A DNA stretch of 36,939 bases from positions 1 through 36,939 of the forward strand of contig MHQR01000001.1 of assembly GCA_001820725.1 (NCBI GenBank). The letters run 5' to 3'. Positions 1 to 3,963 of the stretch are shown here, piece by piece. Every line of letters starts with the position of its first letter. Position 1 is the stretch's first letter. Position numbers and translations under genes: made by a program. The notes beneath the pieces were generated by a model. It worked only from the letters and a program-made list of their open reading frames with translations. It had not been told where the DNA came from and did not search any database. The stretch is from Candidatus Sungbacteria bacterium RIFCSPLOWO2_01_FULL_54_21 (GTDB lineage: Bacteria; Patescibacteriota; Minisyncoccia; Sungbacterales; HO2-52-23).

Positions 1-3000
1 CGGAGTCGTATCATTCGCGCTGTCTTCTGCCCATAAGGTGTAGCCGCTGCCGAGGTTGGAAAGGAGGAATGCGGTGTTTGCTCCTGCGGTTGAGGTGGCT
101 ACGGCAAATGCGGCTCCGGGGGTAGTGGTGCCTATGCCAATGCCAAATCCTCCTGATATAGTGGAGGTGGCTGTTCCGGTGCCCAGATTGATGTCATTGC
201 CTCCGATAGAGAGGTCAGAGGAGATATAGGTGTTGTGGGCTACGATGTCATTGCCGATGATAGAGAGGTCAGAGGAGATATAGGTGTTGTGGGCTACGAT
301 GTCATTGCCGATGAAGTTGTGAGTGGCATCCACCTCAATGTCGTAGACCTGTTCATCGGGTGTGTGTTCTATGGAGGTGATGCGATCCCAGATTGCGTTG
401 GCGCCATCATCGCCTACGACGGCGATGTGCATACCTTCTTTCAGATACATCACCTTTGTCCATAGGCCATGCTTGACAGGCATACTCTCCGGAATTATGC
501 TTGATAGCGCAGTCGCAGGATTGCTTTTACCGCCCGTTGCAAAAGACGGGCTTTTGTGTTGATTTGACAGAGCAGTCGCCGCGGTGCTATGGTGATGCCG
601 TATGGCAAAATCATCTCTCACTATCATAGACGACAAGAACTTACGCGGCGTGCTTGCGCCCTCATCAGTGTTCTCAAAAGAAATGTTGGAAGATGTCATT
701 GATCTCGTCGAGCTATCCGCGCCCGACAGAGCAAGCGAAACCGAGAGGCGTCTCAAGGAGGCAAACCGCAAAAACTCTTGGATTCCTTTTGCGCGAGCAT
801 ATACCCGAGCAAAGAAAGCGCGCTGATCTCCTTTTGCTTTCATCTCGCTATGCTCACCGTCTCCATTCATCCGACTGCCGAGAAAGAGCTGCTCCGCATC
901 CCAAAAGATTTCCGGCTCGCGATTTTGGAGAATATCGCGGAGATTGAGGCGCTCACTCATCCGTTGCAACACCGACGGGTTATTAAATTGCGCGGGAGAA
1001 AAACCAAAGATTTTCGCTTGCGCGTAGGAGATTATCGAGTGGAACTCACCCTTGAAGAATCCTCTGCTGTTCGCATTACCCGCGTAGAACACCGGCAAGC
1101 CGGATACTGAATCAGTCCGCACCAAATACGGATGCTCCGCAGTAGTCCGTATGCTCTTGCCTGATGCAGTCGTGATCTTGTAGATGGGTTTGACTCCCAT
1201 ATCCATCAAGGCATTCACCTTTGACCAGACAATAATGCCGGTCTGCTCATCAAGAGATGCAATCTCGTCTCCTGCTGGGATATCGCGGATAGCAATTTCA
1301 TCATAGATGTAGTCGCTCTCCGCGAGAGCTTGGAGATTGGAGATTGGAGATTGGTCATCGGAATCTAAGTTCCACGTTCCGAGTTCCACGTTCCGTTTGC
1401 GCCTGCGCCTTCTGCGCAATCGCGTATCCCCGGTCACGCACTGCCCCACGACATGAAGGGCTTGAATGGGAGTGAGGGTGCCGATGCCGACGTTGCCCGT
1501 ACTGCTGGGGTTGAGCAGAATATGATTATTTCCTCCGGGCTGGATAGTGAGGTTGGTGGATGCGGTAGAGATGGCGCCTCCGGTAAGGGTGAGTCCATTT
1601 GCGGATGCAAGCCCTCCTCCTGCAACGCTCAATCCGGCAGATGCCCATGTAGAGGTTGCCGATGAGGTATTGGTGATTGATCCTCCTGACAGAGAGATGC
1701 CGTTGGAGGAGAAGAGTCCTCCTTGTCCTGCGAGTACGATGCCGTTGGACAAGGTGTTGGTTGCCGTATTGGTTTGCAGGAGAGAGCCGCCGGTGATGGT
1801 GATACCCGTGGAGGTGGCGAGGTATCCTGATGCGGAGAGTCCGGTATAGAGGGTGGAGGTTGCCGCGGAGACGAAATTGCCTACGCCGTTGATAGAGAAG
1901 AGGGAGCCGGGAGTGGTGGTGCCGATACCGATACTGCCCGTCCCGTCAATCCAGAAGTGCGGCGTTGAAGTGCCCTTGTCACTCACCACAAACACGGGCT
2001 CAATCTGCGTCTGTTCAATGGAGAAGAGTCCCCATGGCGATGATGTGGCGATGCCGACTCGTCCGGTTGCGACGGAGGTATCCAGAGAGAATAATGTATT
2101 CTGGGTGGTTGATGCGGCAAAGGCAAAGGCGTTGACTGTATTATTCAGAACCGTGGAGGTGGCGAAGTTTTCATACCGGATGGATCCGGCGTAGATATTC
2201 AAGATGTCTCCGACGGCGTCTCCTACGGTGAGCGAGTTTTCAATGCTGAAGTTGGAGGCGGTAGTGGTGGCGAGGACGCTTCCCCCCACCGTCGTAATTG
2301 AGTTTGCGAAAATATCTCCCTCTGCGTCCACGAGGAAACGGGGAGAGCTGTTGACCGCAAGACCGATGAGGTTGGTGTCGGCGGCGGCTGACGGCGGATT
2401 AATAATGAAGGGAGCATTCAGCACATTGGATCCTGCAACGCCCGTGCTCCATGCCGAGAAAGAGTGTGGGAGCGTTGGCACAAAGGAGAATTCCGTTTTG
2501 CCGAGGAAGGAGGTGGTGGCGCTGGCTCCTTGCGTGTTGAGCGTGCCGCCCACCGTTAATCCCTGACTTACGAGAATGTTGCCGCTGACGCTGAAAGTCG
2601 TTCCCGGCGTGGTGGTTCCCAATCCAATGCGATAGTTTGCCGTATCAAAGGTAAGGAACGGAATGGCGGTGGTGGACGTTGCGATGGAGAAGGCATTAAC
2701 CTTGTCCGAAAGAATGGTGGTCGTGGCAACGGTGTTGAAAACAAGATCCCCACCGCCCAGCGTAATGTCCTGCGTGGAAAGGATGGTTCGCGCAGTGAGG
2801 ATATCAGCAGAGATATTGCCCGACGTAATAGTGAGGTTGCCCGAAGTGATGTCTATGTTCCCGGATGCCACCGTCATGCCATTTCTTACGGTGATGCTGT
2901 TGAGATTATCAATGTCCTGGGAGACGGTTACCATTTGGATTGAGGAGGCGGCTGACTGGGAGGCGGAAGATGCGGTCCTTGAGATGCCCGATATTTCTTT

Positions 3001-3963
3001 TCTGACGTATTCGCGGATCTGGGCGTTGATGGTCTCGAGATACGCGAGGAGTTCGTTTTTGACGGGGGTGAGGTCGGCGGTGACGATCTCGGTGCGACGT
3101 TCAGTAATTTCGCGCATCCTGTTAGTTTCGGAAATCACCGGCGAGAGAGGAGGAGCTTTTTCTGTTTCTGCAGGCGTCGCGGACACAGAACTCTCCACCA
3201 TGTGAGATATTGATACAGGAACAATAGGCGGTGCAATTTCCTGTACCAGGACGCGCGTTTCTGTTTTTGCAAACCACGTCCATACCGCATTCGCAACTTT
3301 CTCTACCGCGCGCCGCGCCGGCGCAAAAAGTGCGATGACACGTTCCTGCCCGCCGAATCCTTCATCCGCGACAGATGCAAGCATTGCAACGTCATCAAGC
3401 ATTTTTTTCGCCGTCTCCACAGCCGCAATCTTTGCATTTCTGAAATCACTGCCACGCTCGGTAACGATGGCCGAGGTCCGCGCGGCCTGCCATTCCTGCA
3501 CACCGCGCACTCCCGCAATCCCCGCAACGGTGGATACCGCCAGCGCCAGCCCGAGAACGACGCCCTCCTGCGCGATATGCGCGAAAAAACGGCGCGTCGT
3601 AGCCATCTTCACTGAAATTTCCTTTTCTGCTCTAAGCGCAGGATATCGGATGGCATCCGATATCGTATAGGATGCCTGCGGAGCAAGAAAGTCGTTTGGG
3701 GTGCTCCCCCCATTATCGTTAACTTTCTTTATCAGTGTCTCTCTCTGCCGCGCAGCATATGCCGCAACTGCGGTCTTTGTCGTGTACCAATTGCGCCCGA
3801 ATTTCCTCGCATCCAGCTTTCCTTTTCGGACAAGCAAAGACAAATACTCTTGCGAGTACGGAGTCCCGTCCGCGGCCTGTCCAAGCGAGATATAAATTTT
3901 TCTTTCCTCTTCTGACATTTCAGCGATCCGATATGCGGAACCAATACCGTATCGGATGAGCAT
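1..3963 (-). CDS. Large surface fibre/adhesin-like protein (partial; runs off left edge): N-terminal HTH-like domain, one TM segment, repetitive GIGTTTP/TSTxx repeats, interrupted by an intein
   Basis: I translated the minus strand in the frame of ATG 3963-3961. There is no stop from 3963 to 1 (1321 codons). It starts MLIRYGIGSAYRIAEMSEEERKIYISLGQAADGTPYSQEYLSLLVRKGKLDARKFGRNWYTTKTAVAAY (HTH-like), then TM VVLGLALAVSTVAGIAGV, then repeats such as GSIGIGTTTPGSLFSINGVGNFVSAATSTLYTG. Absent from the ORF track, probably because no stop lies inside the window. Confidence 0.88.
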   Translation of the reverse strand, partial: MLIRYGIGSAYRIAEMSEEERKIYISLGQAADGTPYSQEYLSLLVRKGKLDARKFGRNWYTTKTAVAAYAARQRETLIKKVNDNGGSTPNDFLAPQASYTISDAIRYPALRAEKEISVKMATTRRFFAHIAQEGVVLGLALAVSTVAGIAGVRGVQEWQAARTSAIVTERGSDFRNAKIAAVETAKKMLDDVAMLASVADEGFGGQERVIALFAPARRAVEKVANAVWTWFAKTETRVLVQEIAPPIVPVSISHMVESSVSATPAETEKAPPLSPVISETNRMREITERRTEIVTADLTPVKNELLAYLETINAQIREYVRKEISGISRTASSASQSAASSIQMVTVSQDIDNLNSITVRNGMTVASGNIDITSGNLTITSGNISADILTARTILSTQDITLGGGDLVFNTVATTTILSDKVNAFSIATSTTAIPFLTFDTANYRIGLGTTTPGTTFSVSGNILVSQGLTVGGTLNTQGASATTSFLGKTEFSFVPTLPHSFSAWSTGVAGSNVLNAPFIINPPSAAADTNLIGLAVNSSPRFLVDAEGDIFANSITTVGGSVLATTTASNFSIENSLTVGDAVGDILNIYAGSIRYENFATSTVLNNTVNAFAFAASTTQNTLFSLDTSVATGRVGIATSSPWGLFSIEQTQIEPVFVVSDKGTSTPHFWIDGTGSIGIGTTTPGSLFSINGVGNFVSAATSTLYTGLSASGYLATSTGITITGGSLLQTNTATNTLSNGIVLAGQGGLFSSNGISLSGGSITNTSSATSTWASAGLSVAGGGLASANGLTLTGGAISTASTNLTIQPGGNNHILLNPSSTGNVGIGTLTPIQALHVVGQCVTGDTRLRRRRRRKRNVELGTWNLDSDDQSPISNLQALAESDYIYDEIAIRDIPAGDEIASLDEQTGIIVWSKVNALMDMGVKPIYKITTASGKSIRTTAEHPYLVRTDSVSGLPVFYAGNANSRGFFKGEFHSIISYAQAKIFGFSPAQFNNPSVLQRMSERLNLRDILQNREPEIFWDAEQLFLGSRMNGDGEHSEMKAKGDQRAFFARVYARAKGIQEFLRFASLRRLSVSLALSGADSSTRSMTSSNISFENTDEGASTPRKFLSSMIVRDDFAIRHHHSTAATALSNQHKSPSFATGGKSNPATALSSIIPESMPVKHGLWTKVMYLKEGMHIAVVGDDGANAIWDRITSIEHTPDEQVYDIEVDATHNFIGNDIVAHNTYISSDLSIIGNDIVAHNTYISSDLSIGGNDINLGTGTATSTISGGFGIGIGTTTPGAAFAVATSTAGANTAFLLSNLGSGYTLWAEDSANDTTP
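205..314. repeat. 54-bp tandem duplication at the intein C-terminal splice junction
   Basis: 205-260 is identical to 259-314 (offset 54). Encodes TYISSDLSIIGNDIVAHN twice. Confidence 0.93.
564..593 (+). promoter_or_regulatory. Promoter of the intein-nested TA cassette
   Basis: TTGACA (564-569), 18-nt spacer, TATGGT (588-593) with TGn extended -10; ATG at 602, so the transcript is probably leaderless or nearly so. Confidence 0.55.
602..826 (+). CDS. Putative antitoxin of a type II TA pair, encoded antisense inside the intein ORF
   Basis: 74-aa ORF MAKSSLTIIDDKNLRGVLAPSSVFSKEMLEDVIDLVELS...ARAYTRAKKAR, immediately upstream of a RelE-like ORF and preceded by a good promoter. Antitoxin role inferred from position and size. 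Confidence 0.7.
   Translation: MAKSSLTIIDDKNLRGVLAPSSVFSKEMLEDVIDLVELSAPDRASETERRLKEANRKNSWIPFARAYTRAKKAR
850..1110 (+). CDS. RelE/ParE-superfamily toxin, encoded antisense inside the intein ORF
   Basis: 86 aa: MLTVSIHPTAEKELLRIPKDFRLAILENIAEIEALTHPLQHRRVIKLRGRKTKDFRLRVGDYRVELTLEESSAVRITRVEHRQAGY, with the typical RelE pattern (VIKLRG...DFRLRVGDYRV...I.RVEHRQ..Y). Confidence 0.82.
   Translation: MLTVSIHPTAEKELLRIPKDFRLAILENIAEIEALTHPLQHRRVIKLRGRKTKDFRLRVGDYRVELTLEESSAVRITRVEHRQAGY
3642..3664. repeat. Perfect palindrome GATATCGGATG-G-CATCCGATATC
   Basis: 11-bp arms, 1-nt centre, inside the N-terminal part of the fibre gene. Related ATCCGATA/TATCGGAT arms at 3926-3933 and 3950-3957. Confidence 0.8.

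Follow-up and report, generated by a model that had tools for sequence, protein, structure and literature searches.

The intein and its host gene

The window, that is the whole analysed stretch of 36,939 nt, begins at the edge of its contig inside a gene read on the minus strand, whose 3' end is therefore missing (Table 1). The product of this gene resembles a surface fibre, with repeated GIGTTTP..L.V.G motifs, and is interrupted by 385 codons without a stop (minus strand, 1440-286) that run from CVTGDTRL to GNDIVAHN, followed by T. This segment matches the Pfam family PF14890 (Intein_splicing) at 6e-18 and TIGR01443 at 1e-7, while its match to the N-terminal profile TIGR01445 (6.8e-5) is slightly under the cut-off (23.8 vs 24.5 bits). 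The two halves, when joined, are similar to the NpuDnaB mini-intein 4o1r (phmmer, 2.6e-18), and a Foldseek search with the predicted structure retrieved DnaB inteins (4o1r, TMt 0.89). The AlphaFold model, built with 36 homologues, has pLDDT mostly >90 in the splicing halves and mostly <50 in the linker. The class 1 Hint signature is complete (C1, TAEH in block B, HN, +1 Thr), and C1, T100, H103, H169 and N170 are invariant in an alignment of 14 homologous inteins. Thus, profiles and fold agree with the complete minus-strand framework of the original prediction, and 286-1440 is a canonical intein by Pfam, TIGR and PDB-fold support; judged from its anatomy, it looks competent for splicing.

The tandem repeat at the contig edge copies the C-terminus of the intein, GNDIVAHN/T, together with the first extein residues TYISSDLSI, and possibly provides a second candidate HN/T splice junction. 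We found no intein-free allele of the fibre site; genome G004 holds the downstream flank only, once, at the start of a contig. The linker peptide has no Pfam family and no LAGLIDADG, HNH or other nuclease domain, and no tRNA gene was found in the linker DNA.

Table 1. Positions of the fibre gene, the intein and the nested cassette in the window
Feature	Positions	Strand	Remarks
Host fibre gene	1..3963	-	1321-aa ORF, open at contig start
Intein	286..1440	-	385 aa; Cys1 to His-Asn; +1 residue Thr, codon 283-285
N-terminal splicing half	1120..1440	-	Block B TAEH at 1132-1143; pLDDT >90 except in a charged loop
Linker	469..1119	-	217 codons, no stop; modelled as low-confidence/disordered; holds the antisense cassette
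C-terminal splicing half	286..468	-	WTKV...VYDIEV..THNFIGNDIVAHN; profile matches, alignment, model
54-nt tandem repeat	190..314	-	2.3 copies; near contig edge
Second promoter-like site	473..501	+	TTGACA-17-TATGCT; where the linker borders the C-half; many inteins of the family have a site at this position
Terminator-like hairpin	532..551	+	Between the two promoter-like sites; weak (1 found vs 0.7 expected by chance)
Sigma-70-like cassette promoter	564..593	+	TTGACA-18-TATGGT, TG before -10; ends 8 nt 5' of the antitoxin ATG
Antitoxin-like gene	602..826	+	74 aa; homologues lie 5' of homologous toxins
Toxin, RelE/ParE superfamily	850..1110	+	86 aa; antisense, in codon register with the intein frame

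A toxin-antitoxin cassette on the opposite strand of the linker

The plus strand of the linker carries two small genes. The protein encoded by the distal one matches PF05016 (ParE_toxin) at 3e-6, with 28.2 bits vs a curated cut-off of 23, and its AlphaFold model (pLDDT 88.5) has the RelE toxins 9g12, 1wmi and 3bpq as top Foldseek matches, which upholds its assignment to RelE/ParE toxins from sequence alone. The proximal gene has no family in Pfam, NCBIfam or PADLOC; its reading as an antitoxin nevertheless stood, as its homologues immediately precede homologous toxins at four further loci (L042, L073, L188 and L189), with 41-42% identity to the antitoxins of L042 and L073, which are themselves nested in inteins. 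PADLOC assigned no defence family to the pair, and no relatives of the toxin were found in viral contigs. The predicted promoter of the cassette is present, and L042 has its equivalent at the matching place (TTGACA-18-TATTAT). The codons of the toxin, unlike those of the antitoxin, are in register with the intein frame, which, as originally noticed, stays open through the whole cassette. Between the toxin stop codon and the His codon of block B (1132-1134) the distance is 21 nt, and not about 24 nt as first estimated. Taken together, the pair looks like a functional type II toxin-antitoxin (TA) operon, in which the larger product would be toxic and the smaller one would rescue the cell from it.

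The same antitoxin and toxin families recur antisense in homologous inteins of L042 (genome G192, from a different family of the same class) and of L073 (Candidatus Kaiserbacteria). The distance from the toxin stop to the HPY motif is 15 nt in both L042 and the window, in identical register. In genomes G217 and G092 the pair is a conventional operon of two genes that lies outside all inteins found in our survey, and the matching antisense frame of the free-standing relatives is broken by 7 stops in L188 and by 2 in L189. Since the pair occurs both with and without an intein, we regard the cassette as a genuine pair of genes.

Cargo of homologous inteins

We surveyed genomes, including species-genome and viral collections, with the intein framework rather than the cargo as the query. 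The survey yielded 114 pairs of N- and C-terminal intein halves, 103 of them with an open frame, and 100 distinct open linkers, from Patescibacteria, Omnitrophota and Elusimicrobia, were scanned for cargo. A type II TA module (ParE/RelE, DUF433-DUF5615 or PemK) is present in 26 of these 100. Linkers that overlap opposite-strand TA genes are thus frequent; the original prediction had proposed a search for such overlaps with RelE/ParE ORFs. The TA HMMs built for this analysis matched 25 of 111 linkers, every one antisense (25 antisense, 0 sense) and every one with an open intein frame; the linker with PemK (L101) brings the count to 26. No sense-strand TA module was detected among the linkers scanned with these HMMs. 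The Pfam matches of the 130 antisense linker ORFs comprise DUF433 (17), DUF5615 (16), ParE (5) and PemK (1, in L101), and those of the 100 sense linker peptides comprise NYN (23), LAGLIDADG_3 (4), HNH_3 (2), LPD3 (2) and Hom_end (1). Sense nuclease cargo and TA cargo are mutually exclusive across linkers. As sister inteins carry LAGLIDADG_3, HNH_3 or NYN in the very same slot, the cassette of the window indeed sits where a homing endonuclease may be found. The commonest TA cargo of the sister inteins is the DUF433-DUF5615 (PIN-like) pair, which has the same antisense placement and is not of the family found in the window. The pair is complete in 24 of the 25 HMM-matched linkers; L106 has the antitoxin only, and toxin-only linkers number zero. 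The 1500-nt linker of L060 contains two tandem TA modules. Entry of TA modules into the linkers of these related inteins has therefore happened repeatedly, with at least three TA families involved and always in antisense orientation.

The open linkers make up 12.7 kb of the ~22.6 Mb (rounded sizes) of 29 intein-bearing genomes, i.e. ~0.06%, and hold 4 of the 11 DUF5615 genes (for one of the four, G031 C18, the match to the intein C-half is only weak) and 2 of the 32 ParE genes of these genomes. The density of TA genes in the linkers is thus >100x the genome average.

Other kinds of cargo were also observed. Proteins of 65-80 aa with two transmembrane segments are encoded antisense in 15 linkers (including L042:2879-3076(+), L065, L079, L092, L103, L109, L115, L117, L119, L123, L177 and L180), and one of them matches DUF6722. 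A tRNA-like element of 67 nt, with a 7-bp acceptor stem, a perfect T arm and no D arm, lies antisense in 6 linkers and sense in none (L035:2039-2109(+), L043:1709-1779(+), and the linkers of L071, L087, L130 and L180); these elements resemble the tRNA-like domain of tmRNA, under the Rfam cut-off. Among the linkers of relatives ARAGORN made one tRNA call, in L039, a linker with stops, and Rfam gave several sub-threshold tmRNA-like matches. Thirteen linkers (including L036, L061, L072, L075, L076, L078, L081, L088, L091, L123 and L125) encode an in-frame domain that begins with FEVDQS..IED, has conserved acidic residues and no Pfam match, and by eye is possibly RNase-H-like.

In ten loci (L039, L046, L058, L068, L089, L102, L104, L108, L178 and L182) a gap of 1.8-3.3 kb that includes stops separates the two intein halves. 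It contains a sense gene of ~430-570 aa that starts with a zinc-ribbon/HTH region and ends, by eye, in a PD-(D/E)XK-like region, usually followed by an S23/Avd-like gene and sometimes by an NYN gene; neither protein of the L108 gap matches Pfam. These loci may represent split inteins with homing-like cargo. In L033, L091 and L125 a single fibre gene or locus accommodates 3-4 inteins of the family, at repeated GIGTTSP..L.V.G motifs, all with different cargo. The same fibre inteins are found in L065 and L077, filed under Nitrospinota and Deltaproteobacteria, on contigs of 3-4 kb that are probably misbinned and of patescibacterial origin.

Selection on the overlapping frames

The lack of codons in the toxin that would place stops in the intein had been pointed out in the original prediction. 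The observation itself stands, with neither TTA nor CTA among the toxin's 11 leucine codons and no TCA among its 3 serine codons, but under a synonymous-codon null the probability of an open intein frame opposite the window toxin is 0.40, and the avoidance carries no weight alone because the genome uses TTA and CTA for only 4% of its Leu codons. The argument holds for the class: synonymous randomisation of the 25 nested cassettes gave a summed log10 P(open) of about -42, with a median P of 0.029 each. The antisense frame is open in 24 of 24 nested cassettes vs 0 of 21 free-standing TA homologues of the same families, taken from the same or related genomes (Fisher p = 2e-11, a conservative value because L210 and L220, nested in G031, were counted among the free-standing copies).

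A test for purifying selection in both frames had also been proposed. Such selection is evident for the TA frame, whose third codon position is the most divergent (0.41, 0.31 and 0.64 for positions 1, 2 and 3 of DUF433), in the window pair as across the class; these tests, like the randomisation and the Fisher test, pool related sequences, so that P values are indicative. The proteins of the TA frame are also more alike than those of the codon-aligned opposite frame, both for DUF433 (48% vs 26% identity) and for the ParE type (32% vs 19%), and linkers with NYN have the same codon-position pattern, but on the sense strand. From these patterns and identities we conclude that it is the plus-strand TA proteins that are selected, while the linker peptide mainly must stay open.

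Promoters and exchange of cassettes

For 16 of the 25 TA cassettes, the top-scoring sigma-70-like site directly 5' of the antitoxin outscores at least 98% of shuffled sequences (p<=0.02); such promoters often have 11-12 of 12 matches, with about 5-35 nt between them and the start codon. Moreover, many linkers (e.g. those of L033, L034, L040, L041, L063 and L084) carry, in antisense orientation at their C-edge, a perfect TTGACA together with a -10-like hexamer. At this edge TTGACA is found antisense in 53 of 100 linkers and on the sense strand in 6 of 100; for the N-edge the figure is 1 in 100. The motif appears to be conserved as DNA, because unrelated peptides encode it in two registers (FVK/PVK vs LSS/LSR). 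That the C-edge promoter marks only inteins with antisense cargo was considered and rejected, given that it also occurs in 19 of 23 inteins whose sense cargo is NYN and in 11 of 13 whose sense cargo is RNase-H-like.

Cassettes swap between inteins, as those of similar framework hold different cargo. On a tree of intein frameworks, 22 of whose 85 inner branches are starred, the ParE label requires 9 changes for 9 rows and the DUF433 label 14 for 15, and the starred branches force at least 6 changes for each of the two labels. L083 and L085, from one Peregrinibacteria genome, have frameworks with ~91-92% DNA identity, which ends abruptly at unrelated linkers. In L042 and L065 the promoter stretch is identical, yet the TA families that follow it differ, which places a cassette exchange just 3' of the promoter.

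How the intein may persist

We propose, with a probability of about 0.6, that the homing-endonuclease slot of this intein has been taken by an antisense RelBE-like TA operon and that the intein persists by addiction. The fibre gene would be translated through the linker, a single Hint domain would form from both halves, and splicing, to judge from the anatomy of the intein, would remove it from the protein, while the plus-strand operon would be transcribed from its own promoter to give the antitoxin and the RelE-type toxin, as the promoter, the homology and the selection pattern suggest. If the intein allele were deleted or replaced by an empty one, the antitoxin gene would be lost, the more stable toxin would stay and the cell would be poisoned; addiction would thus keep the intein instead of homing, or after it. 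The overlap would also shield the linker from indels, since an indel that breaks the antitoxin would be costly. This proposal fits the data because pairs are intact, one linker has the antitoxin only and none the toxin only, open antisense frames occur only in nested copies, and the enrichment is more than 100-fold. Many relatives persist without a TA module, with in-frame nucleases or short linkers; the addiction module is one class of cargo among several in the linker slot, and antisense cargo other than TA is common.

The last point bears on a neutral account, according to which the disordered linker, among the few sites of a long fibre gene at which DNA can be inserted harmlessly, merely tolerates insertions, only frame-preserving antisense ones survive, and the TA modules persist through their own selfishness without special gain for the intein. 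Such an account would accommodate the non-TA antisense cargo (the two-transmembrane proteins of 15 linkers and the tRNA-like elements of 6), the sense in-frame nucleases in the same slot, the rapid exchange of cargo and the modelled disorder of the linker. It agrees poorly with a TA density in linkers >100x the genome average, and it predicts frequent broken toxins, whereas toxins are intact in 24 of 25 linkers and under selection as proteins; an intein-bound TA would in any case act as an addiction module whatever the reason for its arrival. We regard neutrality as the chief alternative, though as less likely than addiction. We give much less credence to a regulatory or defensive role, in which fibre expression would be controlled, or phage resisted, through antisense transcription of the linker or through the TA itself, with the persistence of the intein as a by-product. 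Type II TAs can act in defence, and many inteins of the family, those with sense cargo among them, have the sigma-70-like antisense promoter at the C-edge, but near-identical inteins differ in cargo, which is not expected of a fixed regulatory function, and the pair falls in none of the PADLOC defence families.

An artefact, i.e. chance ORFs or a chimeric join in the assembly at about 470-1120, might be suspected from the contig edge at position 1 and from the 54-nt repeat at 190-314. The curated profile matches, the confident RelE fold, the conserved codon-position pattern and the antisense orientation of 25 out of 25 cassettes are all at odds with it, and the chimera was rejected because the unrelated, independent assemblies of L042 and L073 nest the same TA family antisense in homologous inteins; for practical purposes this explanation is refuted. 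Retention by addiction, the reading we favour, may be part of a broader design, which we put forward tentatively and at somewhat less than even odds: the intein family would serve as a modular platform for antisense cassettes, composed of a splicing frame, a conserved antisense promoter at one linker edge and exchangeable, independent opposite-strand genes for TA modules, two-transmembrane proteins or tRNA-like RNAs, among which TA cassettes would make the element self-retaining without homing.

Relation to known systems and implications

The intein of the window shares with homing-endonuclease inteins the Hint framework and a linker between block B and the C-terminal half, and differs from them in having no endonuclease and carrying instead an opposite-strand TA operon with its own promoter. 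The operon in turn resembles RelBE/ParE type II operons (1wmi, 3bpq, 9g12) in having two small genes, the antitoxin first, and a toxin of the RelE fold; unlike them, it lies antisense inside a gene that needs to be translated, and its antitoxin belongs to no catalogued family. Addiction modules are known on plasmids, ICEs and superintegrons, and restriction-modification systems act likewise. To our knowledge, no intein has been described that uses an addiction module. As with those modules and restriction-modification systems (the latter noted in PMC9957025), loss of the carrier would be punished, with the antitoxin going with the carrier, except that the carrier in the window is a protein-coding insert.

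Two other systems invite comparison. STALEMATE (PMC12455656) is a synthetic sequence entanglement with an engineered +2-frame overlap, which involves an intein-bearing meganuclease; in both cases a protective gene that overlaps another reading frame stabilises both, or would do so, but the overlap in the window is natural and antisense. The Rpn systems (PMC10327210) have intragenic antitoxins, made as same-frame internal products, and are likewise genes within genes that make a TA, whereas the overlap reported here is antisense. In the full text of the open-access PMC literature we found neither a TA operon nor any antisense gene inside an intein, so that the original claim of a cargo without earlier description is not contradicted. 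The intein and the TA-type pair are each of a known kind; their combination and arrangement are, as far as we know, new.

For genome annotation the locus is a warning, as one of two overlapping genes is usually missed or called spurious. For the evolution of overlapping genes it offers a clean system, with free-standing homologues as built-in controls. It is a natural entanglement of two unrelated opposite-strand genes that recurs in many lineages of bacteria and many TA families, and engineered sequence entanglement has in it a natural counterpart. If the platform of exchangeable antisense cassettes is real, it is a mobile-element architecture not described before. To the question of how inteins persist after the loss of their homing endonuclease, an intein-borne TA offers a direct and testable answer: if addiction is true, a host that drops the intein also loses the antitoxin. 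That related inteins repeat the arrangement points to a new means by which selfish elements may resist loss.
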